The translations under genes were made by a program, and so were the position numbers. Below are positions 225-63,752 of a stretch of 64,000 bases of DNA, one piece after another. Each line of letters begins with the position of its first letter. Position 1 is the first letter of the stretch. This DNA is from Saprospiraceae bacterium (lineage in GTDB: Bacteria; Bacteroidota; Bacteroidia; Chitinophagales; Saprospiraceae). The notes below the pieces were generated by a model, which did not search any database, was not told the DNA's origin, and was given only the letters and a program-made list of their open reading frames with translations. Where the stretch lies: positions 1 through 64,000 of the forward strand of contig JALHQW010000019.1 of NCBI GenBank assembly GCA_022841745.1. The letters run 5' to 3'.

Positions 225-1976
225 ATGAGTAATTTCCAAATAAAGAAAAAGCCCACGGTGTATGATGCCATCATTGTGGGCTCTGGCGCAGGAGGGGGCA
301 TGGCGGGCTATGTGCTCTCGCAAGCGGGCCTCAAGGTGCTGATGCTGGAGGCCGGCCCGTTTTACGACCCCAAGCTGCACTCTTTCCAAATGTTGCCACC
401 CTGGGCATCGCTGCGCAGGGGCGCTGGCACCACCCGTGCCTTCGGCGAGTTCGATGCGGCAATGGGCGGCTGGCAGATTGACGGCGAACCTTACACCGCC
501 GCCGAGGGCACCGAGTTCCATTGGTTCCGCTCGCACATGCTGGGCGGCCGCACCAACCATTGGGGCCGCATCTCGTTGCGCTTCGGCCCCAATGATTTCA
601 AGGGAAAAAGCTACGACGGCGTGGGCGACGACTGGCCCATCAGCTACGACGACGTGAAGCCGTATTATGACAAGATTGACGTGATGCTCGGCATCTACGG
701 CACCAAGGAAGGACTGCCAAACGACCCCGATGGCATCTTCATGAAGCCGCCCAAACCACGTCTCCACGAAATTTTGATTAAAAAAGCGGGGCAAAAAATC
801 GGCGTGCCCGTGATTCCGGGCCGAGGCTCCGTGCTGACCGAAGACCTGAAAGACCCGAACTCAGGCCGCCAGAAATGCTGGTACTGCGGCCAGTGCGGAC
901 GGGCCTGTAAGATTTACGGGGACTTCTCCTCTTCTTCCTGCCTCGTCATCCCAGCGCAGACCAAGCACAGCCTCGAACTGGAATGCAATGCCATGGTGCG
1001 GGAGGTGTTGACCGACCAAAACGGCCAAGCCACAGGCGTTTCCTATGTGAGCAAGGACGACGGACAGGAGTACCAAGTAATGGGCAAGACCGTCATCCTC
1101 GCTGCCAGTGCTTGTAGCTCGGCCCGCATCATGCTCAACTCCAAGAGCAGCCGCCACCCCAACGGCATCGGCAACGGCAGCGGTGCCGTGGGCAAATACC
1201 TCCACGACTCCACGGGCGTGGCCATGGGCGGCATCATGCCCTCGCTCCTCGACCGCAAGCGCTACAACGAGGACGGCGTGGGCAGTGTCCACATCCTAAG
1301 CCCTTGGTGGCTCGACAACAAAAAGGCGAAGCTCGACTTCCCCCGTGGCTACCATATCGAGTATTGGGGCGGTATGGGCGACCCCGCCTACGGCTTCGGC
1401 TTCGGCATACAGGGCATCAACGGCAAGTACCCCACCAAGGACGGCCAAACCAAGGAGGCGGGCGGCTATGGCGCTTCGCTCAAACAGGACTACCGCCGCT
1501 TCTACGGGGCCAACGTGGGCATGGCAGGCCGGGGCACTGGCCTTGCGCTCGAAAGCAACTACTGTGAAATAGACCCGAACAAAGTGGACAAATGGGGCAT
1601 CCCCGTGCTGCGTTTCAACTATAAATGGACGGACGCCGAAATCCTACAGGCCAAGCACATGCAAGAGACCTTCCAGGAAATGATGAAGGCCATGGGCGCC
1701 GATATCACCTGGGGCATACAGGGCAAGGAGAACAACTACGGCCTCGAAGCCCCTGGCCGCATCATCCACGAGGTGGGGACGGTGCGCATGGGCGACGACC
1801 CAAAGAAGGCCCCGCTCAACAAATGGTGCCAGTCGCACGAGGTCAAAAACCTCTTTGTGACCGACGGCGGCCCCATCGTGCAGCAGGGTGACAAGAACTG
1901 TACTTGGACCATTCTCGCCTTGTCCATGCGCACGGCGGAGTATATTGTGGAGCAGAAAAAACAGAATAACATTTGA
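225..1976 (+). CDS. GMC-family FAD-dependent oxidoreductase
   Basis: A 583-residue flavoprotein of the glucose-methanol-choline family, which oxidises alcohol groups of sugars or polyols using FAD. A Rossmann FAD motif GSGAGGG is at residues 19-25. The C-terminal GMC_C region contains IHEVGTVRMG and NCTWTILAL, where the family's active-site histidine and histidine/asparagine pair lie. A cysteine cluster C218-x2-C221-x2-C224-x3-C228 sits in the middle of the protein and could bind a metal or Fe-S centre, as in some membrane-linked sugar dehydrogenases. No signal peptide is visible. The next gene encodes a gluconate 2-dehydrogenase subunit 3-like protein, so the two probably form a periplasmic dehydrogenase exported together by Tat. 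The substrate cannot be told from the sequence. Confidence 0.9.
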   Translation: MSNFQIKKKPTVYDAIIVGSGAGGGMAGYVLSQAGLKVLMLEAGPFYDPKLHSFQMLPPWASLRRGAGTTRAFGEFDAAMGGWQIDGEPYTAAEGTEFHWFRSHMLGGRTNHWGRISLRFGPNDFKGKSYDGVGDDWPISYDDVKPYYDKIDVMLGIYGTKEGLPNDPDGIFMKPPKPRLHEILIKKAGQKIGVPVIPGRGSVLTEDLKDPNSGRQKCWYCGQCGRACKIYGDFSSSSCLVIPAQTKHSLELECNAMVREVLTDQNGQATGVSYVSKDDGQEYQVMGKTVILAASACSSARIMLNSKSSRHPNGIGNGSGAVGKYLHDSTGVAMGGIMPSLLDRKRYNEDGVGSVHILSPWWLDNKKAKLDFPRGYHIEYWGGMGDPAYGFGFGIQGINGKYPTKDGQTKEAGGYGASLKQDYRRFYGANVGMAGRGTGLALESNYCEIDPNKVDKWGIPVLRFNYKWTDAEILQAKHMQETFQEMMKAMGADITWGIQGKENNYGLEAPGRIIHEVGTVRMGDDPKKAPLNKWCQSHEVKNLFVTDGGPIVQQGDKNCTWTILALSMRTAEYIVEQKKQNNI

Positions 1977-2042
1977 TACTTGATGCTGGATACTGGATAG
2001 CGGCTGCTGAACGTCTCTATCCAGTATCCAGCATCAAGTATC
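1975..2042. repeat. Perfect 25-bp inverted repeat between the two dehydrogenase genes
   Basis: The arm at 1975-1999 is the exact reverse complement of 2018-2042, with an 18-nt loop. Each arm is itself built of a repeated word (ATACTTGATGCTGG, ATACTGG). A third partial copy of the word (TATCCAGCATCAA) follows and reaches almost to the next start codon. The left arm overlaps the stop codon of the GMC gene. The hairpin has no T-run, so it is not a classical terminator. It belongs to the word-repeat class seen throughout the window. Confidence 0.85.
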
Positions 2043-2057
2043 CAGCATCAATAAAAA

Positions 2058-2717
2058 ATGAAACGACGGGATTATCTCAAATTCATAGGCGTAGGCTCCA
2101 TATCGGCAGGTTTGCTGTTGGAGAGCTGCAAAACCGATGGGAGTGACGCCGCCCCATCTACTACGGACGCCGCCGAGGCCCCCGAAGGGGCAAGTGACAT
2201 CATTACCGCCGGGCGGGAGCAGCACGAGATTGACCGGGACAAGCGGCTGCTCAGTGAGACTTTTTTCAACGAGCATGAAATGGCCACCATCGCCATCCTC
2301 GCCGACATCATCATCCCCAAGGACGAAGTGTCGGGCAGTGCGACCGAGGCGGAGGTGCCTGCCTTCATCGAGTTCATCGTGAAGGACCTGCCGGAGCACC
2401 AAGTCCCCATGCGGGGCGGCCTCCGCTGGTTAGACCTGGAGTGCTACGGCCGCTTCGAGAAAGCCTTCGTGGACTGCACCCCGGGGCAGCGCCTTCAAGT
2501 GGTGGACGACATCGCCTACCCAGCCAAGGCCAAGCCAGAGATGAGCCAAGGTGTCACCTTTTTCAACAAGATGCGGGACCTGACGGCCACTGGCTTCTAC
2601 ACCACCCAAATGGGCTGGGACGACATCGGCTACAAGGGCAATACCCCAAACACCTATACGGGCGTGCCGGACGATGTGCTGGAGGCGTTTGGGGTGAAGG
2701 ATATGAATTGGGGGTGA
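2058..2717 (+). CDS. Gluconate 2-dehydrogenase subunit 3 family protein, Tat lipoprotein
   Basis: A 219-residue protein. The N-terminus MKRRDYLKFIGVGSISAGLL has twin arginines (residues 3-4), a hydrophobic stretch and then a lipobox ending at C24, which indicates Tat export and lipid anchoring. The body (FNEHEMATIAILADIIIPKD, later TATGFYTTQMGWDDIGYKGN) matches the family that accompanies GMC dehydrogenase catalytic subunits. It lies 81 nt downstream of the GMC gene on the same strand, separated only by the hairpin at 1975-2042. The likely role is a small partner or escort subunit that brings the cofactor-loaded flavoprotein to the periplasm. Confidence 0.85.
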   Translation: MKRRDYLKFIGVGSISAGLLLESCKTDGSDAAPSTTDAAEAPEGASDIITAGREQHEIDRDKRLLSETFFNEHEMATIAILADIIIPKDEVSGSATEAEVPAFIEFIVKDLPEHQVPMRGGLRWLDLECYGRFEKAFVDCTPGQRLQVVDDIAYPAKAKPEMSQGVTFFNKMRDLTATGFYTTQMGWDDIGYKGNTPNTYTGVPDDVLEAFGVKDMNWG

Positions 2718-2753
2718 GGGGACTTGCCCAAATGTTTAAAATGCGGCTCAATG

Positions 2754-2798
2754 AAACGGGAGATGCGGTAAAGTGCCGTGTTTCCCGTTTTTATTTTT
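2754..2798 (+). terminator. Rho-independent terminator after the dehydrogenase pair
   Basis: The sequence AAACGGGA at 2754 pairs with TTTCCCGTTT at 2781, with an inner CGG/CCG pairing, and is followed by TTTATTTTT. It lies about 40 nt after the stop codon of the subunit 3 gene. Confidence 0.7.
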
Positions 2799-2985
2799 AG
2801 GAAGGTTGAACCAAAGGTAAAAATGCCTCAAATCGAAGCGACCATACGTGTAGGCGTTTGGCATAGCAGCCTCGTTTTCTAAGTTTCGTCTCAAAAAAAC
2901 TGTCCTGCAATGGAAACGAATCACCAATCAACCGTATAACCACAAGCAATTGCTGCTAACCCATTCCACAATTAAACAACTTGCC

Positions 2986-3660
2986 ATGCTCACAGCAAAA
3001 GAGACCCAAGCCGCCCAAGAATTCTGGGCGTGGTTCGAGCAGAACCGCCTTCGTTTCGAGTTCATCTTCGATATGTCGGACGAACAGCGAACGCAGCTTT
3101 TCAAAGATATAGAACAAAAAGTGTCGGTCTATGCCGAAGGGCTCGAAGTACAGCCCGGCAACAATGTGGGGAAAGAAGGCCCCAAGTTCCGGGCAATCAT
3201 CAGCGCTGGTGGTAACATCCCGCTTTTCAAGAAGGCCAAAGCTTTGGCTGACCTTGCGCCAGCTATGCCCGACTGGGTGGTTTGCGCCTTGGTACCTCCC
3301 CTGCCAAAGGGCATCAGAATCCGTTTCAAACTGAAGGATGGGCTGCTTTACCCCGAAGACGTGTGGTTCCAACTCATGGAGGCACCGGAAGATCCACCTT
3401 TCTTGGGCATACACCTCGCCCTCAAGCAGTTCGACCATTGTGCCAACGACGATGATTTTGCAGAATTGCAAAACATCCTGATGCAAATGCTGCTGAACCT
3501 CCTCGGCGAGGAATCCATGGCGATGGACATCCAACATTTTGAGATGGGCCCACTCCCGCCCGACCCCGTGGAAGAAGGCTTCTCGGAACTCTACGACCTG
3601 CCGGAACACATCGCCGAGTTCAGGAAGGACATGCCGAGCCCGAGGTTGGGGGAGGGATAG
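2986..3660 (+). CDS. Conserved hypothetical protein
   Basis: 224 residues from the ATG at 2986. A TTG 12 codons upstream is possible but adds only unconvincing sequence. I do not recognise the family. The protein is acidic, with no signal peptide or membrane segment, so it is probably cytoplasmic. A tryptophan-rich start (EFWAWFEQNRLRFEFIF) and two repeated themes of hydrophobic strands with acidic turns suggest a compact alpha/beta fold. It converges on the Roc-COR gene with only 6 nt between stop codons and no terminator. Confidence 0.7.
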   Translation: MLTAKETQAAQEFWAWFEQNRLRFEFIFDMSDEQRTQLFKDIEQKVSVYAEGLEVQPGNNVGKEGPKFRAIISAGGNIPLFKKAKALADLAPAMPDWVVCALVPPLPKGIRIRFKLKDGLLYPEDVWFQLMEAPEDPPFLGIHLALKQFDHCANDDDFAELQNILMQMLLNLLGEESMAMDIQHFEMGPLPPDPVEEGFSELYDLPEHIAEFRKDMPSPRLGEG

Positions 3661-3666
3661 GTTAAA

Positions 3667-11796: not shown

Positions 11797-11904
11797 TTGA
11801 GTTTATCGGTTGATAAAGTTGATAAGAGGTTGATAGGGGTTGATGGCTCGTATAACGCAGTCCTCCATCAACCTTTATCAACCCTTATCAACCCTTATCA
11901 ACCG
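11797..11904. repeat. Inverted word array, TTGATAA / TTATCAACC vocabulary
   Basis: The left side repeats GTTGATA-type words four times (from 11809), and the right side repeats TTATCAACC-type words four times (from 11866 to 11904). A unique spacer of about 25 nt lies between. The two halves are inverted complements in several registers. The array ends about ten bases from the start codon of the isomerase gene. The same vocabulary recurs at 22911-23000. Confidence 0.8.
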
Positions 11905-20150: not shown

Positions 20151-20506
20151 CTTCTGGGGTTCTGGGGTTCTGGGGTTTTAGGGTTCTGGGGTTTTAGGGT
20201 TTTAGGGTTTTAGGGTTTTAGGGTTTTAGGGTTTTCGGGTTTAGGGCAAAACCTAACCACAAATAATTTTTGAAAGGATTGAAAAAACTAACCAACCATT
20301 TCAAAAACAGTTGTTAGGCCACAACCCGAAAACCCGAAAACCCCAGAACCCGAAAACCCGAAAACCCCAGAACCCGAAAACCCGAAAACCCCAGAACCCG
20401 AAAACCCGAAAACCCGAAAACCCGAAAACCCCAGAACCCCAGAACCCGAAAACCCAAAAACCCGAAAACCCGAAAACCCAAAAACCCGAAAACCCGAAAA
20501 CCTCAC
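20151..20506. repeat. Large telomere-like inverted word array
   Basis: Left array 20151-20245: tandem 8-nt words GGGTTCTG, GGGTTTTA and GGGTTTTC. Right array 20322-20506: about 22 words of the inverted complement type (AACCCGAA, AACCCCAG, AACCCAAA). The spacer of about 76 nt holds no gene. Both arms are G-rich on one strand (plus on the left, minus on the right), so each could form quadruplexes and both together a long hairpin. This fills nearly all of the 537-base gap 20005-20541. Confidence 0.9.
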
Positions 20507-21945: not shown

Positions 21946-22133
21946 TTCATGGCTTCATGGTTGCATGGTTTCATGGCTTCACGGCTTCATGGTTGCATGG
22001 TTGCATGGTTGCATGGTTTCATGGTTACATAGCTTCACGGCTTCATGGTTGCATGGTTGCATGGTTTTGAAAAGCCATGAGACAATGAAGCCATGAAACC
22101 ATGAAACAATGAAACAATGAAGCCATGAAACCA
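21945..22133. repeat. Inverted word array, GGTTTCAT / GGCTTCAT vocabulary
   Basis: About fourteen 8-nt words (GGTTTCAT, GGCTTCAT, GGTTGCAT, GGTTACAT) run from 21947 to about 22066. Then, after a short turn (TTTTGAAAA), the complementary words (CCATGAAA, CAATGAAG) run to 22133. The array fills the whole convergent gap between ribA and the exonuclease gene. The same vocabulary occurs at 36717-36833 and 63639-63752. Confidence 0.88.
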
Positions 22134-22910
22134 TCACAAATCCATCTTCATCCACACTGGGCAGTGGTCGCTATGGACGGCGTCCTGAAGGTTGCGGGCA
22201 TCCAAAATCTTATCCTTTAAAATTTCGCTAACCGATTGATAATCAATGCGCCAACCCTTGTTGCTGGCCCTTGAATTGAAGCGGACACTCCACCAGGTGT
22301 AGTCGTCTTTTTTGTTGGGATGGGCGTGCCGGAAGGCATCCACGAAGCCCGATTCGAACCATTTCGTCATCCAGGCCCGCTCTTCGGGCAGGAAGCCGGA
22401 GGTCTTTTGGTTGGTCTTGGGGCTGTGTATGTCAATGTCCTTGTGGGCGATATTGTAGTCGCCGACGATGATGAGCTTGGGGCGCTCCTTTTTCAGCTCC
22501 GCAATCCAATTGAAAAAATCGTCGAGGAACTCGTACTTGAACCCTTGCCGCTCCTCGCCGCTCGTTCCCGAAGGAAAATAACAGTTCAGCAGCGTCCAGT
22601 CGCCGAAGTCGGTACGTAGGATTCGGCCTTCCCGGTCATATTTTTCGATGCCGCAACCGAGCACCACTTTGTCCGGTTCCCGTTTGCTGAGAGTGGCCAC
22701 GCTGCTGTAGCCCTTCTTCTCTGCCGAATGCCAGAAGTGGAATTTATAGCCAAGTTCTTCGATGGCCTTGAACTCCAACTGGTCGGGCTGCGCTTTGGTT
22801 TCCTGGAAGCAGATGATGTCGGGATCCTGTTCGCCGAGCCAAGTGAATAGGCCCTTCTTCTCGGCTGCCCGTATGCCGTTGACGTTGTAGGAGATGATGG
22901 TGGTGGACAT
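22134..22910 (-). CDS. xth: Exodeoxyribonuclease III / AP endonuclease
   Basis: 258 residues from the ATG at 22910. The family signature residues are IISYNVNGIRAA at the N-terminus, ICFQETKA (metal glutamate), GDYNIAHKDID (Asp and Asn) and AVHSDHCPVWM (catalytic Asp-His). It cleaves at abasic sites and degrades 3' ends in base excision repair, in the cytoplasm. The gene lies between two different word arrays. Confidence 0.95.
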   Translation of the reverse strand: MSTTIISYNVNGIRAAEKKGLFTWLGEQDPDIICFQETKAQPDQLEFKAIEELGYKFHFWHSAEKKGYSSVATLSKREPDKVVLGCGIEKYDREGRILRTDFGDWTLLNCYFPSGTSGEERQGFKYEFLDDFFNWIAELKKERPKLIIVGDYNIAHKDIDIHSPKTNQKTSGFLPEERAWMTKWFESGFVDAFRHAHPNKKDDYTWWSVRFNSRASNKGWRIDYQSVSEILKDKILDARNLQDAVHSDHCPVWMKMDL

Positions 22911-23000
22911 AGGTTTGGTTGATGAGGATTGATACTGGTTGGTGATTGAAAACAGGGCCTCCATCAACCCTTATCAACCTATCAACTTTTATCAACCCTT
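22911..23000. repeat. Inverted word array, TTGAT / TTATCAACC vocabulary
   Basis: The left half carries GGTTGATG and TTGATACTGG-type words directly upstream of the xth start codon. The right half (about 22970-23000) has CATCAACCC, TTATCAACC, TATCAAC and TTATCAACCC. It is the second copy of the vocabulary at 11797-11904. Confidence 0.75.
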
Positions 23001-23020: not shown

Positions 23021-23887
23021 CTATACTTTCTGCTGGCTGAATTTTTTGCGCCATGCGCCCGGCGTCATCTTTTTTTTCATCAAAAACATGCGGTTGAAAT
23101 GCGTCATGCTGCTGAACCCGGCACTGTATGCCACTTCCGGCATGGCATTTTCGCCTTCTGTCAAAAGCTGACAAGCACGCTGCACCCGCAGGTCGTTGAG
23201 GTAGTCGGAAAAAGCCCTTCCGGTCATTTTTTTGAAAAAACGGCAAAACGAGGTCTCCGTCATGTGTACCGCTGCTGCCAGGTCGGCGAGGCTGATTTGT
23301 TCGGTGAAATGCTGGTGCAAAAACCGGAAAGCCCGGTCAATCCGCTGCTCGTTGTCCCGCCCAACCGACGGGTTGTACATTGGCGAAGCCAACAACCGCC
23401 CCTCCTTTCCCTTGCTTAATTCGTCAAGCAGGAGCAGCAAGCTCGACAGCCGCTCCAGTCCGCCCATTGCTGGCAACTGCGCCATCCGCCGAGCCATCTC
23501 CTCTGCAACCGAGGGGTGAAAAGCCACACCTCGGTTCGAATTTTCGAGCAACTGCCGCACCGCCGCCAATTCTGGCAAGGCCAAAAAAGCATCACCCAGC
23601 ACCGACTGCTTGAACTGCACGACCACGGCACTGGCATCGCCTTCCCATGTCTTTTTTTCGTCGGTGGCCCAGGTATGTGGCAGGTTCGGGCTGAGCAACA
23701 CCAGGTCGCCATCGTGAAACGAATCCACTTGGTCGCCCACAAGGCGGGTACCGCTGCCTCGGTGGATGTACGTAAGTTCGTACTCCGGGTGGTAGTGCCA
23801 ATTGAACGAAAAACCCGGCTCCTCCCGCCAGTAGGCCACAATGGAGGAGGCTTCGTCTTCTGCGATATGTTCCAGTGCTGGCTTCAT
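23021..23887 (-). CDS. AraC-family transcriptional regulator with cupin sensor domain
   Basis: 288 residues. The N-terminal cupin (FNWHYHPEYELTYIHRGSG, DGDLVLLSPNLPHTW) would bind a small ligand. The C-terminal ~100 residues hold two helix-turn-helix motifs (ISLADLAAAVHMTETSFCRF and VQRACQLLTEGENAMPEVAY, then GFSSMTHFNRMF). It is divergent from a PhyH dioxygenase gene, and a 16-bp perfect inverted repeat lies between them, so it probably controls that gene and itself. Confidence 0.9.
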   Translation of the reverse strand: MKPALEHIAEDEASSIVAYWREEPGFSFNWHYHPEYELTYIHRGSGTRLVGDQVDSFHDGDLVLLSPNLPHTWATDEKKTWEGDASAVVVQFKQSVLGDAFLALPELAAVRQLLENSNRGVAFHPSVAEEMARRMAQLPAMGGLERLSSLLLLLDELSKGKEGRLLASPMYNPSVGRDNEQRIDRAFRFLHQHFTEQISLADLAAAVHMTETSFCRFFKKMTGRAFSDYLNDLRVQRACQLLTEGENAMPEVAYSAGFSSMTHFNRMFLMKKKMTPGAWRKKFSQQKV

Positions 23888-24015: not shown

Positions 24016-24840
24016 ATGTTATCAGCAGCCATTGACCTTTCCATCCTCGACGAGCCATTCCGCCTCAGCCCTGAGCAGATTGATTTTTACCGGGAACATA
24101 ACTTCATCAAATTGAAACAGGTCTTCCCGCCCGATGTGCTGGAACACTACGGCCAAGTCATTTCACAAAAAGTAAAAGAACTCAACACCCAGCACCTGTC
24201 CATGGAGCAGCGGGACACCTATGGCAAGGCCTTCCTCCAAATCATGAACATCTGGACGAAAAGCGAGGAGGTGCGCCGCTTTGTGTTCGGCAAGCGGCTG
24301 GCCCGCATCGCCACCGAGCTGATGGGCACACGGGGCGTGCGCATGTACCACGACCAAGCCCTGTTCAAGGAGCCAGGCGGCGGCTTCACCCCTTGGCATG
24401 CCGACCAGTATTACTGGCCCCTGGCCAACGACAACACCGTGACCGCCTGGATACCGATGCAGCCCGTTCCGCTCGAAATGGGTCCGCTGGAGTTCAGTGC
24501 GGGCAGCCAGCGCATCCCCCTTGGCCGCAACCTGAAAATCAGCGATGACAGCGAGGAACATATCGGTAAAGCACTGAGGGTAAACGACTTCCCGCACGTC
24601 ATCGAGCCATTCGAACTGGGCGAAGTGAGCTTCCACAGCGGCTGGGTCTTCCACCGGGCAGGCGCCAACCACACCGACCAAATGCGGCAGGTAATGACCG
24701 TGATTTACATGGATGTGGATATGAAACTGAAAGCCCCCGAAAACACCAACCAGCAGAACGATTGGGATACCTGGTGCCCCGGGGCGGTGGTAGGGGAGCT
24801 GATTGAGACGGCGATCAACCCGGTGATTTATCAAAAATAA
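24016..24840 (+). CDS. Phytanoyl-CoA dioxygenase (PhyH) family protein
   Basis: 274 residues of the Fe(II)/2-oxoglutarate-dependent oxygenase fold. The iron ligands are in PWHADQYYW (His and Asp) and VFHRAGANHT (His), with an arginine shortly after (QMRQVMTV) that would bind 2-oxoglutarate. The substrate is unknown. Several Bacteroidota paralogues act on small sugars or polyols. Control by the divergent AraC regulator is likely. Confidence 0.88.
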   Translation: MLSAAIDLSILDEPFRLSPEQIDFYREHNFIKLKQVFPPDVLEHYGQVISQKVKELNTQHLSMEQRDTYGKAFLQIMNIWTKSEEVRRFVFGKRLARIATELMGTRGVRMYHDQALFKEPGGGFTPWHADQYYWPLANDNTVTAWIPMQPVPLEMGPLEFSAGSQRIPLGRNLKISDDSEEHIGKALRVNDFPHVIEPFELGEVSFHSGWVFHRAGANHTDQMRQVMTVIYMDVDMKLKAPENTNQQNDWDTWCPGAVVGELIETAINPVIYQK

Positions 24841-24999
24841 GAGGCTGTATCATAAGTCCAATCGCAAATGAGCCAACAAAATTTCTCACGCAACGCCGCC
24901 ACGAACGCAACGATTTATTTGTGAGGTTGCGTTCGTGGCGGCGTTGCGTGAAATTATATTTTGCGGTCGTTTTAGAAATAGAACTTATGATACAGCCTC
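24841..24999. mobile_element. Probable MITE, 159 bp, with nested palindromes
   Basis: Terminal inverted repeats GAGGCTGTATCATAAGT (24841-24857) and its exact complement (24983-24999) enclose a second perfect 25-bp inverted repeat (24887-24911 and 24926-24950, core CGTTCGTGGCGGCGTTG). The termini resemble those of IS1182/IS5-like elements. No ORF is inside. No target duplication is obvious. It starts right after the PhyH stop codon and sits in a convergent gap. Confidence 0.7.
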
Positions 25000-25034
25000 C
25001 AATTTTACTTTGTCATTCCCGCAGGGAATCTAAT

Positions 25035-28422: not shown

Positions 28423-28860
28423 GCGTTGCTGTGCAAAATGGCCGTTGGAAACTTTCGGGAGATTTGCGGCGTTAGCAAGCTGGTTAGGAAATTAGGAAAT
28501 TAAAGATTCACGCAAGTAAATTGAGGTGCTGGGAGCAGTTAATTATAGAGATGAACGCATTTAAAGTTGAAAGCAGCCGTCTTCGAGAGGAGGGGTTATC
28601 AAACCCCGGTGTTCTGGGACGACGGGGTTTGATAACCCCTCCTCTCGAAGATGGCCGCTAATTGCGCAATCCGAATATCAATTTCAAATGCGACTACCCA
28701 TAATTGCTTGATGGTCAATAAAATGACTGTTTCCCCAATTATTATCGAATTAAACATTTTTACCAAAATAATCGAGTGCTAAGGTCAACGTAAATCGGAT
28801 GAGCTACAGTACGCTGCTAATCTTTTTACTTTCTCCTTTTTACTTTTTACTTTCTGAATT
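28423..28860. other. Long gap with hairpin and pyrimidine tract
   Basis: 438 bases between two plus-strand genes. A large hairpin sits at 28576-28655. Downstream is AT-rich DNA. A tract of repeated TTTTTACTTTC words (28826-28857) directly precedes the next start codon, a single-arm word array. No ORF. Confidence 0.6.
28580..28651. repeat. Perfect 28-bp inverted repeat
   Basis: Arms 28580-28607 and 28624-28651 (core GAGGAGGGGTTATCAAACCC) with a 16-base loop; the flanks GCC and GGC extend the stem. No T-run follows, so it is not a standard terminator. Confidence 0.85.
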
Positions 28861-33490: not shown

Positions 33491-33626
33491 AAGTTGGCAG
33501 TTCGACAGGGGGCAGTGTGCAGTCAGTTCGGCAGTTGTTTAGTCAGTGCCAAGTTAAAAGCGAGAGACTGAATGACTGCCGGACTGCACCCTGACTGCAA
33601 ACTGCTAACTGCCAAACTGCCAACTT
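33491..33626. repeat. Inverted word array, GGCAGTT / AACTGCC vocabulary
   Basis: The left part (33491-33550) repeats AGTTGGCAGTTCGAC, GGGCAGTG, GCAGTCAGTTCGGCAGTT. The right part (33570-33626) repeats GACTGCC, GACTGCAAACTG, AACTGCCAAACTGCCAAC. It fills the gap between two minus-strand genes and reaches into the end of the glycosylase gene. A 15-nt word is shared with the E2 gene (40991-41005). Confidence 0.82.
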
Positions 33627-35536: not shown

Positions 35537-35727
35537 TTTTACAAGGATTGAAGGATTGAATGAAAGAAGGATTGAATTAGAGGGGGATTAAATATTGAAG
35601 GGCAAAGATGAAAATCAGCAAGGGAAATGCGGATTTTGCTTTACTTTGCCCCGCTTTTCAAGCTGCAAACATAGCAGTTTCCTTTCCCTACCGAACATAA
35701 CAAAACAACAACGAATCAGAATTGACT

Positions 35728-36717: not shown

Positions 36718-36833
36718 GCATGGCTTTATGGCTTCATTGCCACATGGTTTCATTGTTTGCCCTCATAATGGCAACTATGCATTCATGAAACCATGAAGCC
36801 ATGTAACAATGAAGCCATGAAACAATGAAGCAA
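36717..36833. repeat. Inverted word array, GGCTTCAT vocabulary
   Basis: The left side has GGCTTTAT, GGCTTCAT, GGTTTCAT words (36720-36755). The right side has CATGAAAC, CATGAAGC, AATGAAGC words (36783-36830). The array fills the fabH-efp gap and uses the same vocabulary as 21945-22133 and 63639-63752. Confidence 0.85.
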
Positions 36834-36899: not shown

Positions 36900-37460
36900 A
36901 TGGCAGATACTTCTGATATCCGCAACGGCCTTTGCATGGAAATTGACAGCGACATCTGGTCGGTGGTCGAGTTCCAGCACGTAAAGCCTGGCAAAGGGCC
37001 CGCTTTTGTTCGCACCAAACTAAAATCGCTCACCAAAGGAAAAGTGGTTGACCGTACCTGGCCATCTGGCCACGCCATCACAGAAGTCAGGGTGGAGCGC
37101 CGCAAGTTCCAATACCTCTACGAGGACGACATGGGCTTCAACTTCATGAACACGGACGACTATGAGCAAGTCGCCTTGGCCGAAGCCCTCATCGCAAGCC
37201 CAAAACTGCTGAAGGAAGGCATGGTGGTGGACGTACTGTTCAACTCCGCCAACGACACCCCGTTGAGCCTTGAGATGCCGCCCTTAGTCGTAGTGGAAGT
37301 AACCTATACCGAGCCGGGCATTAAGGGCGATACCGCTACCAACACCTACAAGCCCGCCACTGTTGATACGGGCGCCGAGGTGCGTGTACCGCTTTTCATC
37401 AACACAGGTGAAAAAATCAAAGTGGACACGACCACGGGCGAGTACATGGGACGTGCTTAA
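36900..37460 (+). CDS. efp: Elongation factor P
   Basis: 186 residues. Three beta-barrel domains: the N-terminal KOW-like domain with the loop HVKPGKGPAF (lysine 32 at the tip, the usual modification site), then the OB domains (ATNTYKPATVDTGAEVRVP and FINTGEKIKVDTTTGEYMGR). It rescues ribosomes stalled at polyproline. Cytoplasmic. It lies between fabH and accB. Confidence 0.96.
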   Translation: MADTSDIRNGLCMEIDSDIWSVVEFQHVKPGKGPAFVRTKLKSLTKGKVVDRTWPSGHAITEVRVERRKFQYLYEDDMGFNFMNTDDYEQVALAEALIASPKLLKEGMVVDVLFNSANDTPLSLEMPPLVVVEVTYTEPGIKGDTATNTYKPATVDTGAEVRVPLFINTGEKIKVDTTTGEYMGRA

Positions 37461-37557
37461 TCTGGGGTTTAGAAAGTTTAGGGGGTTTAGTAGGTTTAGA
37501 TTGGAGTCGTTTTCTAAACCTACTAAACTTACTCAACCTCCTAAACCTCCAAATAAA
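37461..37557. repeat. Inverted word array, GGTTTAG / CTAAACC vocabulary
   Basis: The left half repeats GGGTTTAGAAAG, TTTAGGGGG, TTTAGTAGG. The right half repeats CTAAACCTA, CTAAACTTA, CTCAACCTC, CTAAACCTC in 9-nt steps. It fills the efp-accB gap, starting at the efp stop and ending ten bases before the accB start. Confidence 0.85.
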
Positions 37558-38100: not shown

Positions 38101-38178
38101 AAACGGTGGGCGACAGACGATGGACGGTGGACGGTTGGTCGGCCCCGTCCACCGTCTATCGTTTGCCGTCAATCGAGA
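38101..38178. repeat. Inverted word array, GACGGTGG / CCACCGTC vocabulary
   Basis: Left words ACGGTGGGCGAC, GACGATGGACGGTGGACGG. Right words CGTCCACCGTC, TATCGTTTGCCGTC. The two sides are inverted complements around TCGGCCCCG. It fills the accB-accC gap. Related single-arm words occur at 48186-48222. Confidence 0.85.
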
Positions 38179-38182
38179 AAAA

Positions 38183-39529
38183 ATGTTCGACAAAGTTCTT
38201 ATAGCCAACCGTGGTGAGATAGCCTTGCGGGTCATACGTACCTGTCGGGAGATGGGCATCAAGACCGTAGCCATCTACTCAACCGCCGATGCCGAGAGCC
38301 TGCACGTCCGTTTTGCCGACGAAGCCGTTTGCGTCGGGCCACCAGCCTCCAAGGATTCTTACCTTAACATACCCCGCATCATGGCTGCGGCAGAAATCAC
38401 CAATGCCGATGCCATCCACCCTGGCTATGGCTTCTTGGCGGAGAATGCCGATTTTGCCGAAATCTGCGGCGAATATGGCATCAAGTTCATCGGGCCAACC
38501 CCGATGCAGATACGCATGATGGGCGATAAAATCACCGCAAAGTCCACCATGATCAATGCGGGCGTACCCGTTGTGCCAGGTTCTGGCGGCCTCATTGCCG
38601 ATGTGAAAGAAGGAATCGGCCTTGCCAAGGGAATTGGCTACCCTGTCATCATCAAGGCAACAGCTGGTGGTGGTGGCAAGGGCATGCGCATCATCTGGGA
38701 CGAAGCCAGCTTTGAGGGACAATGGAACATGGCCCGCAACGAAGCCAAGGCCGCATTCGGCAACGACGGCATTTACATCGAAAAATACATCGAAGAACCC
38801 CGCCACATCGAAATACAGATAGCGGGCGACCAATACGGCACGGTCTGCCACTTGAGCGAGCGGGAGTGCAGCATTCAGCGCCGCCACCAGAAGTTGGTGG
38901 AGGAAAGCCCCTCGCCGTTCATGACCCCGGAACTGCGCCAAAAAATGGGCGACGCTGCCATCAAAGCTGGTGAAGCCATCAACTACGAGGGCGTGGGGAC
39001 CATCGAGTTCCTCGTGGACAAGTACCGCAATTTCTATTTCATGGAAATGAACACCCGCATACAGGTGGAGCATACCGTGACGGAAGAAGTAATTGACCAC
39101 GACCTCATCAAGGAACAGATAAAGATTGCAATGGGCGAAAAAATTTCTGGGAAGAATTACATCCCAGAAATGCACGCCATTGAATGCCGCATCAACGCTG
39201 AGGATGTTTACAAGGACTTCCGCCCGTCACCCGGAAAGATTGTGTCGCTGCACACCGCCAAGGGGCATGGCGTAAGGGTGGACACCCACGTATATGCAGG
39301 CTATACCATCCCGCCTTATTACGATTCCATGATTGCGAAGCTCATCTGCCGTGCCCGTACCCGTGAAGAGTGCATCACGAAGATGGAGCGTGCCCTCGAA
39401 GAGTTCATCGTGGAGGGCGTCAAGACGACCATCCCGTTTCACAAAAAGCTGATGAAGGACGAGCGCTTCCGTTCGGGCAATTTCCACACAGGTTTTTTGA
39501 ACGATTTTGACTTGGGAACAGAAGATTAG
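38183..39529 (+). CDS. accC: Biotin carboxylase subunit of acetyl-CoA carboxylase
   Basis: 448 residues from the ATG at 38183. The ATP-grasp enzyme starts [20 protein letters not shown]. The ATP loop is [13 protein letters not shown], and [20 protein letters not shown] and [19 protein letters not shown] hold the metal and bicarbonate residues. The C-terminus has [12 protein letters not shown]. It carboxylates biotin on AccB. Confidence 0.96.
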
Positions 39530-39605
39530 TTTCGAGCCACGAGTTTCGAGTTTCGAGGAGTGATTGCCACATCTCGAAACTCGAAACTCACAACTCGTAG
39601 CTCCA
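39530..39605. repeat. Inverted word array, TTTCGAG / CTCGAAA vocabulary
   Basis: The left half repeats GTTTCGAGCCACGAGTTTCG. The right half repeats TCTCGAAACTCGAAACTCAC with AACTCGTAGCTC. The spacer is about 12 nt. It fills the accC-pcm gap. The same vocabulary occurs at 51525-51588. Confidence 0.85.
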
Positions 39606-40261: not shown

Positions 40262-40441
40262 TAATGAATGCCCGCACCCAACGCTGCTTACAATTGTCGT
40301 TAACCTTGCCTAACTTTGCAGCCTGATTTTTTCCTAACCATATTTTACAAAACCACAGAATGGTTGAATGATGAAATTCTGGATGCCACACACCAAAACC
40401 TCCCGATTCATCATTCATCATTTATCATTCATCATTTATTC
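40250..40441. repeat. Split inverted word array, TGATAAATGA / TCATTTATCA vocabulary, with promoter element
   Basis: The left arm is short (GTGATAAATGATAATGAATG, 40251-40270) and overlaps the pcm stop. The right arm (40405-40441) repeats TCATTCA and TCATTTA in 7-nt steps up to the E2 start codon. Between them, TAACTTTG at 40311-40318 is a perfect -7 element, so here the array arms lie on either side of a promoter. Confidence 0.7.
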
Positions 40442-43964: not shown

Positions 43965-43982
43965 TCCGAAATCAGTGTTTTT

Positions 43983-44076
43983 TGATTTCAGATTTCAGAT
44001 AGACGATTTCAGATTTCAGATTGCGAGAACCTCGTAAATCTAAAATCTGAAATCGTCTATCTTATATCTTATATCA
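43983..44076. repeat. Inverted word array, GATTTCA / TGAAATC vocabulary
   Basis: The left half repeats GATTTCAGATTTCAGATAGA and GATTTCAGATTTCAGATT. The right half has AATCTAAAATCTGAAATCGT then CTATCTTATATC. The words GATAGACGATTTC and GAAATCGTCTATC pair exactly. Located between the RidA start and the next minus-strand stop. Confidence 0.82.
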
Positions 44077-44101
44077 ATAATTCAATGCTGTTAGCGGTTG
44101 C

Positions 44102-48185: not shown

Positions 48186-48222
48186 TGTCCACCGTCCGAC
48201 GTAGTCCGTCCATCGTCCACCG
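48186..48222. repeat. Single-arm word array upstream of glyA
   Basis: GTCCACCGTCCGACG, GTCCGTCCATC and GTCCACCG words repeat just upstream of the glyA start. No inverted partner is present, and the gap is divergent. The vocabulary is that of the array at 38101-38178. Confidence 0.7.
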
Positions 48223-50957: not shown

Positions 50958-51040
50958 TTTCAACACGGAGGTATGATAACACAGAGGGCCACGGAGGTAA
51001 AATCGCTCCGTGGCCCTCTGTGTTATCGTGCCTCCATGTT
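50958..51040. repeat. 36-bp imperfect hairpin in the scpA-smpB convergent gap
   Basis: Arms 50958-50993 and 51005-51040 pair with a few mismatches; the 21-bp core (GATAACACAGAGGGCCACGG) is perfect. The loop is 11 nt. The words CACGGAGG repeat within the arms. It sits between the convergent genes. Confidence 0.82.
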
Positions 51041-51047
51041 GATGAAA

Positions 51048-51524: not shown

Positions 51525-51588
51525 TTGAGTTTCGAGTTTCGAGCCACGAGTTTCGAGCCGCTCGGAACTCGGAACTCGGAACTCGCAG
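51525..51588. repeat. Inverted word array, TTTCGAG / CTCGGAA vocabulary
   Basis: GAGTTTCGAGTTTCGAGCC and CACGAGTTTCGAGC words are followed by CTCGGAACTCGGAACTCGGA. The two sides pair imperfectly. It fills the gap between smpB and the YbjQ-like gene and shares its vocabulary with 39530-39605. Confidence 0.8.
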
Positions 51589-56216: not shown

Positions 56217-56229
56217 TTAAAGTATTGTT

Positions 56230-58470: not shown

Positions 58471-58516
58471 AAAAAGAAAGGGCTGGTTCGCACTGAACCA
58501 GCCCTTTCTTTTTTTA
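58471..58516. terminator. Bidirectional terminator between convergent genes
   Basis: AAAGAAAGGGCTGGTTC and its complement (GAACCAGCCCTTTCTTT) form a 17-bp perfect stem with a short loop (GCACT) and runs of A and T on either side. It serves the DUF3078 gene and the convergent YedK gene. Confidence 0.93.
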
Positions 58517-58524
58517 ATATTGTT

Positions 58525-59205: not shown

Positions 59206-59305
59206 GAATACAAGGCTTTTAGTTAGAGAAGCTGTCTGGGCTTCTTCGATTTTTCAGGAAAATCCTCGACTGCTTCAATGAAAACAAGGCGTTGCTACTT
59301 TTTTT

Positions 59306-59880: not shown

Positions 59881-59979
59881 CAAAGCTGTTTTTGCAAAAC
59901 AAAACAATTTAGTTTTACCGTGGTTTGGCGCAAGGAGGTTTTCATGTCGTGGCCTCTTTTCACATTCTATTTGGAGATT

Positions 59980-61092
59980 ATGCAAACAGGTACTGACGTT
60001 TTTCAAATCCCAAGACCTATAAGGCTCTGGCTGTTGGCAGGAGTGGTCATGGTGTTCTTTCAGGTAGTAATTGGCGGCGTCACCAGGCTCACCGATTCGG
60101 GGTTGAGCATTACAGAGTGGTCGGTCATTCAGGGCACCATCCCTCCGCTGAACGAAGCCGAGTGGCAAGTCGCCTTTGACAAGTACAAGGTCGCTGCCCG
60201 CAAACAGTTTGAGACGCTGCATGCTGATATGGCGTTACAGGAGTTCAAGGTCATCTTCTTTTGGGAATACGCCCACCGCCTGTGGGCGAGGCTGATGGGT
60301 TTTGTGTTCTTGTTCCCGTTCATTTGGTTCCTGTTCAAAAAACAGCTTCCCAGCTGGCTGGTGAAGCGATTGGGTGTGGTCATCGCCCTGGCTGCCTTGG
60401 CTGCGGTATTCGGCTGGATAATGGTCGCTAGTGGCCTTAACAACGATGATAGGACTTGGGTAAGTGCTTACAAATTGGTCACGCACTTGGGGATTGCCAC
60501 CACGCTCTTCGGTTACCTGTTTTGGACTTGGCTGCGGGCCTCCCAACCCATTGCCGTTGATGGCCAGTTCACGAGCCTAAAACGGCTCGGCTGGTGGGTG
60601 GCAGGCGTACTTTTTGTGCAGATAGCTTTTGGTGGACTGATGGCGGGCATGAGGGCTGGTCTGATCCATCCACATTTTCCCATTTTCGTGGAGTGGGGGC
60701 GTTTCTGGCAGGTACTGACAGCAGCGCCCGTTGATGCAGCCCAATTGGTGGACTATGAGCCGCAGCAGAGCGTGAAGGCATTGGTTCAGGTACTGCACCG
60801 GGGCATGGCATGGGTATTGGTGGTTTTGGCAGTTTCGCTGTTTGTCAGGTTAAAGCGGCAGGTAGGCATTTCAAACCAGCTCAGCCTTGGCGCCAACCTG
60901 TTAATCGCCGTTCTGTTCGTTCAATTTCTATTAGGGGTTATTACCGTGGTCAATTGTGTGGGAAGGATTCCGCTGTTTTGGGGAGCTGTGCATCAAGCTG
61001 GTGCGTTAGTGCTTTTGGCTGTGGTGCTTTTCGTCAATTACCAGTTTTCGAGCGTGCAAGGAAAGGTTGTTGAAAAACATGTTGGTAACTGA
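59980..61092 (+). CDS. ctaA: Heme A synthase (COX15/CtaA)
   Basis: 370 residues from the ATG at 59980. Eight membrane helices. Signature GGVTRLTDSGLSITEW and haem histidines in EYAHRLWARLMG, VTHLGIA, LHRGMAW and VHQAGA. It oxidises haem O to haem A for cytochrome oxidase in the inner membrane. No oxidase subunit genes are near. Both sides have DnaA-box clusters. Confidence 0.92.
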   Translation: MQTGTDVFQIPRPIRLWLLAGVVMVFFQVVIGGVTRLTDSGLSITEWSVIQGTIPPLNEAEWQVAFDKYKVAARKQFETLHADMALQEFKVIFFWEYAHRLWARLMGFVFLFPFIWFLFKKQLPSWLVKRLGVVIALAALAAVFGWIMVASGLNNDDRTWVSAYKLVTHLGIATTLFGYLFWTWLRASQPIAVDGQFTSLKRLGWWVAGVLFVQIAFGGLMAGMRAGLIHPHFPIFVEWGRFWQVLTAAPVDAAQLVDYEPQQSVKALVQVLHRGMAWVLVVLAVSLFVRLKRQVGISNQLSLGANLLIAVLFVQFLLGVITVVNCVGRIPLFWGAVHQAGALVLLAVVLFVNYQFSSVQGKVVEKHVGN

Positions 61093-61196
61093 TGAAAATA
61101 ACGTAGTTGCTTTATTCTGTTGTATAAAATATTGCAATGACGCATTTTGACCTGCGCCCAATAAGGATGTGCGTACTTGAAAAATGTTGAAAAGAA

Positions 61197-61344
61197 TGTG
61201 GACAACCTCTGAAATAAAGGTTGTGCGCCCCCTTTTTTTACCTTATTTAATATTGTGTTGGGTAAAACTGCGATTTTGTTATTGTTTATGGATTATTAAA
61301 AAAACTACTTTGTTTTAAACATTTGTGGAAAACCTTGTGGATAA
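61197..61344. other. Candidate replication origin, right half: inverted DnaA boxes
   Basis: The 447-base gap 61093-61539 has no gene. It carries DnaA boxes on the other strand: TGTGGACAA (61197-61205), TGTGGAAAA (61324-61332), and a perfect TGTGGATAA (61336-61344). A strongly AT-rich stretch (about 61230-61320) separates them. The boxes face those on the left across the ctaA gene. Confidence 0.45.
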
Positions 61345-61539
61345 GTAGTGAATGTAGATAGAGCCTTGGGGCAATCCCAGGGGATCAAGTGTTCCAGTTC
61401 ATGTAAAACCACCATTTGTCTATGAAGTACCAATAAGTACGTTGATGAGACCTTGAAGTTGCAATGGTGTAAAACAAATTGGCCGTAAGCGCTTAAAAAA
61501 ACTATTTTTGCCGCAATTGCCTAACAATATTGCAGCTAA

Positions 61540-62301
61540 ATGGATTATACAGTCATTGAAGAAGGTGGGTTCAAATACATAGAGACCAAGGGCGGTACCA
61601 AGAACTTGCTGTTGTTGCATGGCCTGTTTGGGGCGCTGAGCAATTTCACTGAAATTTTGGGCCATTTTGGGAAGACTCACAATGTAGTAGTGCCTATTTT
61701 GCCAATATTTGAACTTCCCCTCCTGAAACTCTCTGTTTCAGGATTAGTTGACCACGTCAGTGCCTTTGTTGAGAAAAAAGGCTATGATAAAGTACATGTG
61801 CTTGGCAATTCACTTGGTGGCCATATTGCGCTACTCTACGCTTTGGCACATCCTGAAAAAATCGGCTCTATCACCTTAACGGGCAGTTCTGGCCTTTTCG
61901 AGAGTGCCATGGGCTCCACCTTCCCCAAACGAGGCGATTACGATTATATCAAGAAAAAAACAGAAGATACATTCTACGACCCTGCCGTAGCTTCCAAGGA
62001 ACTGGTGGACGAGGTTTTTGACATTGTAAACGACCGGAGCAAGGCTGTGCGGGTCATTGCGATGGCTAAATCCGCCATCCGTCATAACCTCCGGGAGCGC
62101 CTGCATGCCATCACTGCTCCCACATTGCTTATCTGGGGCAAGGAAGATCAAGTTACTCCAGCATTTGTAGGCGAAGAATTCCACCAACGAATCAAGAATT
62201 CATCGCTGGTGCTGCTTGACAAATGCGGCCATGCACCGATGATGGAGCATCCAAACTTGTTCAACGAGAATTTGGAAGGGTTCTTGGGAAAGGTGGCGTA
62301 A
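61540..62301 (+). CDS. Alpha/beta hydrolase
   Basis: 253 residues. The catalytic triad is apparent: Ser in GNSLGGHIAL, Asp in WGKEDQVTP and His in CGHAPMMEHP. The oxyanion region is LLLHGLFGALSNF. Family enzymes cleave esters or other small substrates. No signal peptide. It has its own terminator region downstream at 62418. Confidence 0.92.
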   Translation: MDYTVIEEGGFKYIETKGGTKNLLLLHGLFGALSNFTEILGHFGKTHNVVVPILPIFELPLLKLSVSGLVDHVSAFVEKKGYDKVHVLGNSLGGHIALLYALAHPEKIGSITLTGSSGLFESAMGSTFPKRGDYDYIKKKTEDTFYDPAVASKELVDEVFDIVNDRSKAVRVIAMAKSAIRHNLRERLHAITAPTLLIWGKEDQVTPAFVGEEFHQRIKNSSLVLLDKCGHAPMMEHPNLFNENLEGFLGKVA

Positions 62302-62417
62302 TTGCCAATTTCACCCTTAGCGATAAGTGGATAGCTTATCACTTTGGATGGCGGGTATATTCATGAAATCAGTTTGCCAATCCTTGTCTGTCAGGCTGCT
62401 AAAACAGTTTATAAACT

Positions 62418-62456
62418 AAAAACGGCGACGGCACCAAATGCCGTCGCCGTTTTTAA
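62418..62456. terminator. Bidirectional terminator
   Basis: AAAAACGGCGACGGCA and TGCCGTCGCCGTTTTT form a 16-bp perfect stem with a five-base loop. It serves the hydrolase gene and the convergent thioredoxin-domain gene. Confidence 0.93.
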
Positions 62457-62474
62457 TTGCAGGACGCCTTTGCC

Positions 62475-63638
62475 TTACCCCTTTTGCTTGATTTTTTGCA
62501 CCAGTTCTTCTGTGGCGGAGTAATCTTCACCAGCCGCCTTGGCGAGTTTGATGGCTTTATTGGCGTTTTTCAGTGCTTTGCGCTTTTTGCCGAGTTTATA
62601 GTAGAGGCTGGCAACGGTATCCGTGTTGGCATAGTTGGCGTCCATTTTCACCGATTGCTTGGCCCAACCGAGGGCATATTTCAGTTCATCCTTACCGTCG
62701 GAGGTTTCATAGATGATCCAGGCCATTTCATTGAGTTCCATCCAATCTTTTGCCGGATATTTCTTGAACTGTTCTTCCGTAATGCGGGCGAAGTTCTTCC
62801 AGTCCTCCCGTTGGGCGTAATAGCCCATCTTTAATTGGCCAGACATCTGCCCGGCTCGTTCTGGGTAGGTCTTGGCATAGAGGTCTTCCACTTTTTTTAA
62901 GTCGGCTTCTGTCTCGGCGCGGTTGATGGTGTTCTGCACGATTTCATCCACCTTTGCCACCACGGCCTCCTTACCGAATTTATCCTCGAACAGTTTTTTG
63001 CGGTCGAGCAAGTAGTCCGCCATTTTAGAGTCAAGGTCGTTCACCATGTTGAAAATGAACTCAAGGTTGGTCTCCGTGCCCCATTCTTTCTGCGTCGCAA
63101 GGTACTCCTCGGCTATTTGCACGTAAGTGCCGTCCATGGCATCGTAGCGGGTTTGTGCGAGGTTGCGCAGCAATTCGGGGGAGCGGTCGCCCTTCTCGTA
63201 ACGGGCAGTGATGGTTCCGGCATTGCGGCCGGGGTCGTTTGCTGCCTCGGCGAGGTTGATAAGCAGGTCGGAGGTATGGTAGCCGACTGCCCGGTGTACG
63301 ACCTTTCCTTCGGAATTGATAAAGAGCAGCGTGGGGTAGGCCTGAATTCCAAACTCACCTGACAGCCCAATGCCCTCGCCTTTTTCCATGTCCATTTTCA
63401 CGTTGATGAAACGGGCGTTGAAATGGTCGCCAACTTCTTTCAGGGTGAACACATCCTTTGCCATCTTCTTACAAGGGCCGCACCACTCGGCGTAGGCGTC
63501 CATAAAGATGAGCTTGTTCTCCTTAGCGGCCATTGCCTTCAGTTCCTTCCAGGTGCCTTTTGAGAACTGGATGCCCTGGGCAAAGCTGTTGCTGCCCAAA
63601 ATGAGCGAGAAGGCTAATAAAATTAGGTATTTTTTCAT
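62475..63638 (-). CDS. Secreted thioredoxin-domain protein with TPR-like C-terminus
   Basis: 387 residues from the ATG at 63638, with a signal peptide (MKKYLILLAFSLILGSNSFA). The thioredoxin domain has FMDAYAEWCGPCKKMA (CGPC) and cis-proline FGIQAYPTLLF. The C-terminal 200 residues contain TPR-like helical pairs (WMELNEMAWIIYETSDGKDE, LYYKLGKKRKALKNANKAIK). It probably reduces disulphides or acts as a chaperone in the periplasm. Confidence 0.88.
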   Translation of the reverse strand: MKKYLILLAFSLILGSNSFAQGIQFSKGTWKELKAMAAKENKLIFMDAYAEWCGPCKKMAKDVFTLKEVGDHFNARFINVKMDMEKGEGIGLSGEFGIQAYPTLLFINSEGKVVHRAVGYHTSDLLINLAEAANDPGRNAGTITARYEKGDRSPELLRNLAQTRYDAMDGTYVQIAEEYLATQKEWGTETNLEFIFNMVNDLDSKMADYLLDRKKLFEDKFGKEAVVAKVDEIVQNTINRAETEADLKKVEDLYAKTYPERAGQMSGQLKMGYYAQREDWKNFARITEEQFKKYPAKDWMELNEMAWIIYETSDGKDELKYALGWAKQSVKMDANYANTDTVASLYYKLGKKRKALKNANKAIKLAKAAGEDYSATEELVQKIKQKG

Positions 63639-63752
63639 GGTTGCACGGTTACATTGATTCATGGCTATATGGTTTCATTGTCGCATGGCTTCATGGTTAG
63701 TGCATTGGGCTACGCCATGAAACAGTGAAACCATGAAACAATGAAGCCATTC
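63639..63752. repeat. Inverted word array, GGTTTCAT vocabulary
   Basis: GGTTGCAC, GGTTACAT, GGCTATAT, GGTTTCAT, GGCTTCAT words (63639-63700) are followed by CATGAAACAGTGAAACC and CATGAAACAATGAAGCC words (63716-63752). It uses the vocabulary of 21945-22133 and 36717-36833 and lies between two similar genes. Confidence 0.85.

Follow-up and report, generated by a model that had tools for sequence, protein, structure and literature searches.

Which process could fill the short gaps between the genes of a bacterium with long hairpins and yet leave their letters free to change? The question is raised by a 64-kb stretch of a Saprospiraceae genome (contig JALHQW010000019.1 of assembly GCA_022841745.1, positions 1–64,000; C19:1–64000 of the 8.43-Mb draft genome G000, hereafter the window and its host). 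A first-pass annotation, made from the letters of the window alone, had noticed inverted word arrays in its gaps, i.e. tandem words of 7–9 nt followed by their inverted complements. Here we show that these arrays are real and genome-wide and that their architecture outlives their vocabulary in related species. Replication template switching together with word slippage in self-templating hairpins is the explanation that suits them best, and we give it an even chance of being right.

Genome-wide occurrence of inverted word arrays

The survey of the host covered 1.264 Mb with 582 gaps of 30–900 nt. Because genes were called with a simple codon-score caller, gap ends are approximate. Under a strict test, which asks for a hairpin with periodic arms inside a gap, 46 of the 582 gaps hold an array, and none of the 582 dinucleotide-shuffled gaps does; the enrichment over shuffled intergenic DNA that the first-pass annotation had left to be checked is therefore present. 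The period is 7 in 22 and 8 in 20 of the 46 arrays. Hairpins of any kind with a score of at least 12 are found in 217 of the 582 gaps (3 after dinucleotide shuffling). A second scan of the same 1.264 Mb, run without gene calls, yielded 78 arrays, compared with none in 420 kb of shuffled DNA. According to one test, 14 of these 78 lie inside called open reading frames (ORFs), and by another 72 of the 78 lie in gaps; at least 3 of the 14 (window positions 37466, 38111, and 39541) are gap arrays at which the ORF was called too long.

The same gap in congeners

We compared gaps around glyA, accC, and the GMC oxidoreductase gene in up to 13 congeners. An additional search of the genus with an AraC-type protein query, which has many paralogues, yielded little. 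The 533 orthologous gap pairs from all congeneric pairs comprise 33 array/array, 124 array/other, and 376 other/other pairs, and array presence is correlated between orthologous gaps (odds ratio 3.6, from non-independent pairs and few gaps). No 9-mer is common to the two arrays in 28 of the 33 array/array pairs; the remaining 5 share one, and 3 of these 5 involve L151 or L153, loci that entered the set through a search for the GGATRC pattern. In a previous count restricted to pairs that include G000, 13 of 144 were array/array, and none of these shared a 9-mer. Because array presence is correlated while only 5 of 33 pairs share a 9-mer, architecture outlives vocabulary. The first-pass annotation had held that architecture and word length are fixed and sequence is not, and had proposed close strains as a test of changing vocabulary; orthologous gaps, compared here in congeners, back the claim far more strongly than the window did and show that vocabulary changes.

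In each of the 12 species examined, the gap 1976/2058 carries an array or a single arm, with at least five vocabularies in total (G005 and G013 have no usable orthologue). Eight of the arrays are complete, two are shorter but inverted (G002, recognized by eye, and G010, with 13-nt arms), and one arm is present in G003, where a contig end cuts it, and in G009. The words are GGATACT/GGATGCT in G000, G006, and G011, GATATTG with AGTTATT in G008, GGTATTG-type in G002, G004, and G012, GTGATT-type in G001, G007, and G010, GGGATGA in G003, and GAGTGATGAT in G009. In the gap 43964/44102, the host has GATTTCA words, G001, G004, G006, and G013 have GATTGTTG-type words, and G012 has ATTGTTGC with ATGGTTTC. 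Upstream of the elongation factor P gene, the gap features ATGGCTTC in the host, GGTTTCA-type words in G001, G004, and G008, ATTGTTGA in G006, GGCAGTT in G009, and AGTCTTC in G010. By the array test, G004 and G010 have hairpins but not arrays in this gap, and G002, G003, G005, and G007 have neither.

The change of words at orthologous gaps is probably part drift and part replacement. A possible stepwise series (GATACTG, GATATTG, GGTATTG) is found in one orthologous gap. Across 8 hand-picked gaps, the mean word distance is 2.54 between orthologous and 2.91 between non-orthologous arrays, and 57 of 2000 permutations gave a value as low. A 9-mer is shared in 5 of 19 pairs whose flanking proteins are at least 80% identical and in 0 of 14 pairs below that level (Fisher p 0.057).

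Arms, loops, and a proposed copying mechanism

The two arms of an array agree word by word. Among 140 arrays, 86 of them usable in this test, we counted 2310 matches between arms, compared with 2274.6 (sd 9.8) after shuffling of words, and none of 2000 shuffles reached the observed value. Identity between the arms exceeds identity within an arm in 107 of the 140 arrays. The arms also differ in composition from the surrounding gaps: 5′ arms contain.322 G,.331 T,.252 A, and.096 C, compared with a gap background of.208 G,.292 T,.292 A, and.208 C. G outnumbers C in the 5′ arm of 70 of the 78 host arrays, and C outnumbers G in 7; counted per vocabulary cluster, the ratio is 19 to 5 among 24 clusters.

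Both features recall template-switch mutation at inverted repeats, for which arm homogenization, loop inversion, and stems enriched in G and U on their 5′ side are described (PMC8604942, PMC8794818). In the model outlined by Monttinen and Löytynoja (PMC8794818), the 5′ base dictates how a pair is corrected by intrastrand template switching, G-U turning into G-C and U-G into U-A; with the 5′ base as template, an excess of G-C and U-A is predicted. Because an inverted repeat reads alike from both strands, G and T would accumulate in the 5′ arm whichever strand snaps back. A back-of-the-envelope estimate, with gap composition taken as mutation bias, gives similar resolution biases of ∼0.64 (G/A) and 0.71 (T/C). 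Among the outcomes listed for template switching are the homogenization of arms and the inversion of spacers (PMC8604942). A candidate inversion is seen in the orthologous, same-vocabulary arrays of G000 and G011, the loops of which match at 11 of 14 positions when inverted and at 5 of 7 when read directly (best of 33 pairs). A second candidate, between two Deltaproteobacteria loci, was dropped, since the entire locus is reversed there.

We infer a mechanism in which two known kinds of replication error act on the hairpins. Slippage would duplicate, delete, and homogenize words of 7–9 nt inside an arm. Template switching on the snapped-back strand would copy one arm onto the other, so that their words stay matched and the loop is flipped at times. 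If the 5′ arm usually serves as template and G·T mismatches are tolerated, the 5′ arm would tend to end up with G at A/G differences and with T at C/T differences. This bias would yield G/T-rich 5′ arms, and the whole array could shift together toward a new vocabulary. Arrays would survive chiefly at sites that tolerate a long hairpin or profit from it, right after a stop codon and away from promoters. Words may also move among loci of one genome, perhaps by ectopic template switching or insertion.

Several observations weigh against this mechanism. Arrays are detected by the complementarity of their arms, which inflates arm agreement. G and T together exceed 50% of the 5′ arm in 16 clusters and not in 7 (p 0.09). 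The G excess is not peculiar to arrays, because plain hairpins of the host show it too, though more weakly (G above C in 88 5′ arms, the reverse in 29), and in Deltaproteobacteria it is weak (19 versus 9). Loop inversion rests on the single G000/G011 case. The closest relatives are ∼84–88% identical in DNA, so no change event was watched, and word changes are unpolarized on the species tree. The word-distance and sharing-by-divergence tests are marginal, and the sharing pairs were in part recruited by pattern. Some orthologous gaps differ in period, 7 versus 8, which looks like replacement. Finally, local templating leaves the sharing of words between separate loci unexplained.

Position relative to genes and a possible RNA function

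The position of the arrays speaks for another account, in which they function in RNA as post-stop or intercistronic hairpins that protect 3′ ends, direct processing, insulate translation, or terminate transcription without a U-tract. Selection would then act on the stem and leave the letters free, so that words turn over. We regard this account as possible, although on balance improbable. The 46 strict arrays occupy 17 of 214 minus/minus gaps, 15 of 167 plus/plus gaps, 12 of 99 convergent gaps, and 2 of 102 divergent gaps; divergent gaps are thus depleted, with 2 of 102 compared with 44 of 480 for the other types. The first-pass annotation had found complete inverted pairs in co-directional and convergent gaps only, which is true of the window but is a strong tendency rather than a rule across the genome, given the two divergent gaps. 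Among 50 co-directional arrays, the median distance from the upstream stop codon is 10.5 nt (at most 21 nt in 36 of 50) and that to the next start is 67.5 nt. As this set counts some arrays in gaps of more than 900 nt, outside its gap total, the strict gap scan is preferred for orientation counts. All 8 window arrays that were folded did better than each of their 200 shuffles, which marks them as hairpin-forming. The retention of an array in orthologous gaps with changing words also fits RNA function, and a like role has been guessed for hairpins of cyanobacterial repeats (PMC2670836). In non-divergent gaps of 60–500 nt, U-tract terminators are rarer with an array (2 of 47) than without (49 of 320; Fisher p 0.04). 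The convergent array at C1:10012–10237 encloses a canonical terminator in its loop.

On the other side, at least 6 T within the next 10 nt follow just 5 of 68 arrays, i.e. a U-tract is generally not found there. Differences between arms show no bias toward wobble pairing in the sense direction (107 compatible and 117 incompatible transitions, in a test without positive control); plain hairpins gave 74 and 74. RNA-sense selection as the keeper of pairing was rejected on this negative result. The earlier suggestion that most arrays are transcribed therefore stands in part: the post-stop position fits co-transcription with the upstream gene, but neither wobble bias nor U-tract backs RNA function as its point. 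RNA function alone leaves the tandem words and their sharing between loci unexplained, and the post-stop position may merely mark where arrays do no harm. The copying and RNA-function accounts are compatible, because copying could maintain what function retains.

Vocabularies within and between genomes

Words recur at separate loci of the host. Compared with a null in which letter positions are permuted within words, 100 of 3003 pairs of host arrays share an 11-mer (null 7.7, maximum 17), and so do 39 of 1950 pairs between the host and its genus and family (null 3.5). The 78 arrays form 24 vocabulary clusters by single linkage, which merges related vocabularies, and 11 clusters occur at two or more loci. 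The loci at 39529 and 51521 both have GAGTTTC words in the host and both have GTTATGA-type words in G012, which hints at concerted change between loci, as far as two loci and two species can tell. Separately, a near-identical loop, GTTAAGGCGTCTGC, is found at host C1:140632 and C5:29622 in arrays of two vocabularies, GGATTGAA and GATTGTTG.

Such recurrence could reflect mobile hairpin elements, with vocabularies corresponding to families of small elements that insert behind stop codons and displace one another. A few families indeed have loops or ends in common, and a gap of the glyA–scpA type is just 1–11 nt long in some species and array-bearing in others. The genome has 9 matches to Y1 transposases, and the 4 loci read (13.4 kb) contain 2–3 periodic hairpins where ∼0.8 would be expected at the genome rate, as a comparison of raw counts. 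However, 96 of the 100 word-sharing pairs have, by a k-mer test, no loop or flank in common, although loops turn over fast; a loop 10-mer, as expected of a homologous interior of the kind found in miniature inverted-repeat transposable elements (MITEs), is common to the other 4. Most arrays are also without fixed element ends, and the possible stepwise word series in one gap does not suggest insertion. We therefore consider mobile elements quite unlikely. Chance low complexity of AT-rich gaps is already refuted by the shuffled controls and an assembly artefact, a doubt raised by the first-pass annotation, is unlikely because separately assembled congeners hold arrays in the same gaps, so that, even with weak hits under a lenient scan of the window and some in its shuffled version (see below), artefact as a whole is hardly credible.

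The architecture also occurs in other phyla, in genomes chosen as matches to the GGATRC pattern or, for the Thermoflexus contigs, to GTGATTN: we found 29 arrays in 272 kb of Deltaproteobacteria, 6 in 149 kb of Thermoflexus, and 1 in 29 kb of Fibrobacterota/Calditrichaceae. Words common to the host and Deltaproteobacteria do not exceed the null at k=11 (2 of 2262 pairs, null 3.0) or k=9 (10 of 2262, null 15.6), and the host shares none with Thermoflexus (0 of 468 pairs, null 1.5). A universal or inherited vocabulary across phyla is rejected by the within-word permutation null. The exact inverted GGATRC pattern was found in 50 stretches in one scan of genome contigs, by their labels from Bacteroidota, Deltaproteobacteria-type genomes, Chloroflexota, Planctomycetes, Verrucomicrobia, Fibrobacterota, Fermentibacteria, Calditrichaceae, and Pseudidiomarina; two lie in a metagenome-assembled genome (MAG) labeled Streptomyces griseus. 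GTGATTN words gave 22 matches in a Thermoflexus MAG and 7 and 16 in two Saprospiraceae (control 0 in each), 1 in G345 (control 4), and none in the other 16 of 20 genomes. CGAGTTT words were found in 1 of 295 other genomes of the phylum, and a single inverted GGCAGTT pattern had 0 matches in viral contigs. As an observation apart, locus L200 of G345 (Desulfobacterales bacterium HSG2) has several 6-nt arrays (TCTTGC, AACTTG, ACTTGC) in 18.5 kb, the 5′ arms of which contain more C than G, at odds with the G/T rule.

Comparison with known repeats

Inverted repeats are ubiquitous near genes, as reported for 1,565 bacterial genomes (PMC10434271). In a limited search of the open-licence literature, we found no account of inverted word arrays whose vocabulary turns over, and we file them as a new, fast-turning form of the short-tandem-repeat hairpins known as short tandemly repeated repetitive (STRR) sequences of cyanobacteria. 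Cyanobacterial STRR sequences comprise a small set of described words. In filamentous cyanobacteria they are tandem words of ∼7 nt, intergenic and hairpin-capable, between neighboring or co-transcribed genes (PMC2670836, PMC2408588). The arrays described here are likewise hairpin-forming intergenic tandems of ∼7-nt words. They differ in having two full arms, words of 7–9 nt, and many vocabularies per genome, whereas these accounts of STRR sequences describe a few recurring repeats, and in replacing words at the same gap between congeners. They also belong to Bacteroidota and fall into 24 vocabulary clusters among 78 arrays.

TAACTGA repeats, 7-nt word arrays of Beggiatoaceae, Cyanobacteria, and Bacteroidetes, are mostly intergenic too (PMC4679880). 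As characterized there, they are direct, consist of one word, lie mostly upstream of start codons, and include 1 inverted case in 170 sets; the arrays here are inverted, post-stop, and of many words. With template-switch mutation, the arrays share homogenized arms and the G/T excess of 5′ arms, but the examples presented in PMC8604942 and PMC8794818 concern yeast coding DNA, microRNA, and rRNA genes and not intergenic tandem-word arrays that change vocabulary. Repetitive extragenic palindromes (REPs) are palindromes of 20–40 bp sorted by tag tetranucleotides (PMC3733652). REPs and bacterial interspersed mosaic elements (BIMEs) with RAYT transposases resemble the arrays as multicopy intergenic palindromes. 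The arrays, in contrast, have no constant sequence, as the 28 of 33 orthologous pairs without a common 9-mer illustrate, and because they are not one fixed repeat, they are by definition neither REPs nor MITEs. The earlier view that they are unlike REP, MITE, or clustered regularly interspaced short palindromic repeat (CRISPR) elements is upheld, since orthologous gaps keep the architecture and change the sequence.

Arrays and other repeats of the window

A lenient scan of the window returned 19 periodic hairpins. Twelve are clear gap arrays, starting in the scan at 1975, 11807, 20152, 21965, 33491, 36719, 37466, 38111, 39541, 43979, 51527, and 63634. The other 7 (5581, 14525, 25979, 32372, 35083, 41602, and 46248) are weak, several of them within ORFs, and were not counted; one shuffled window gave 3 overlapping hits. 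Five weaker or one-armed arrays were recognized by eye. The count of at least fifteen gaps given by the first-pass annotation is thus fair if these are included, and the scan alone supports 12; the four vocabularies that it saw recurring far apart are present as claimed. Rfam gave 0 matches at gathering score in the window.

Eight arrays were both scanned and folded. These consist of GGATACT/GGATGCT words at 1975–2051, flanked by genes for a GMC oxidoreductase and for gluconate 2-dehydrogenase subunit 3; GGTTGATAA words at 11807–11904; ATGGCTTC words at 36719–36827, upstream of the elongation factor P gene; 9-nt GGTTTAGTA words at 37457–37556; GGTGGAC words at 38103–38180, before a biotin carboxylase gene; GAGTTTC words at 39530–39602; GATTTCA/GATATAA/GATAGAC words at 43979–44080; and ATGGTTTC words at 63634–63750. 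Scanning alone supplied a long array of GGGTTTTA/GGGTTCTG and GGGTTTTC words (20152–20503), one of ATGGTTTC words in a convergent gap (21946–22134), one of GGCAGTT words (33491–33626), and a second of GAGTTTC words (51527–51585). Those found by eye are a weaker inverted array of GGTTGATA words that the scan missed (22915–22997), a single arm of GGATTGAA words in a divergent gap (35543–35594), one ATTCATC-word arm with a weak partner upstream (40406–40439), a single arm of GTCCACCG words in the glyA leader (48186–48222), and a hairpin of CACGGAG/CACAGAG words (50960–51042) that, among the relatives compared, is common to G006 only.

Other repeats were seen beside the arrays. A near-perfect palindrome with GAGGAGGGGTTATCAAACCCC lies at 28572–28659 and has a similar copy at host C4:2036; a variant adjoins a Y1 transposase gene (L171, 3171–3238). 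These palindromes may represent a family of REP type associated with a RAYT-like gene. At 24834–25006, imperfect inverted repeats of 49 nt (AGGCTGTATCATAAGT...ACTTATGATACAGCCT) flank a short interior, a possible MITE or insertion sequence remnant. An element with the ends CAATGGTTCGTGAAG/CTTCACGAACCATTG and partly alike interiors is found at host C2:67197–67361, C3:46167–46326, and C4:31198–31360, and the window array that ends near 20503 continues into a right-hand end that resembles it. Near-perfect palindromes ACGTTTACTAAACTT..AAGTTTAGTAAACGT without word periodicity lie ∼1 kb apart at host C2:56835 and C2:57892. The gene at 23021–23887, putatively AraC-type by its matches, has 32 host matches at E ≤0.001 and one close relative (76%, G006) among the 13 congeners.

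Implications

At its broadest, the copying account would make the arrays a self-driving sequence class, a proposal that we put forward tentatively and think rather improbable. Both arms, all words, and in part arrays at different loci would evolve in concert by G·T-biased snap-back copying, each genome would have its own dialect, and a position would keep its hairpin while the spelling changes within a genus. Arrays would pass words to one another in trans, leaving loop and flanks behind, and the same process, active in several phyla, would make and keep long RNA stems with no need for selection on pairing. A functional RNA stem is usually proved by compensatory base changes, and here long stems keep their pairing while their letters change. 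If copying itself keeps the pairing, the arrays would offer a natural system in which to study template switching and would call for caution in RNA discovery based on covariation. The copying account, if true, would explain a kind of intergenic DNA that is seen here in several phyla.

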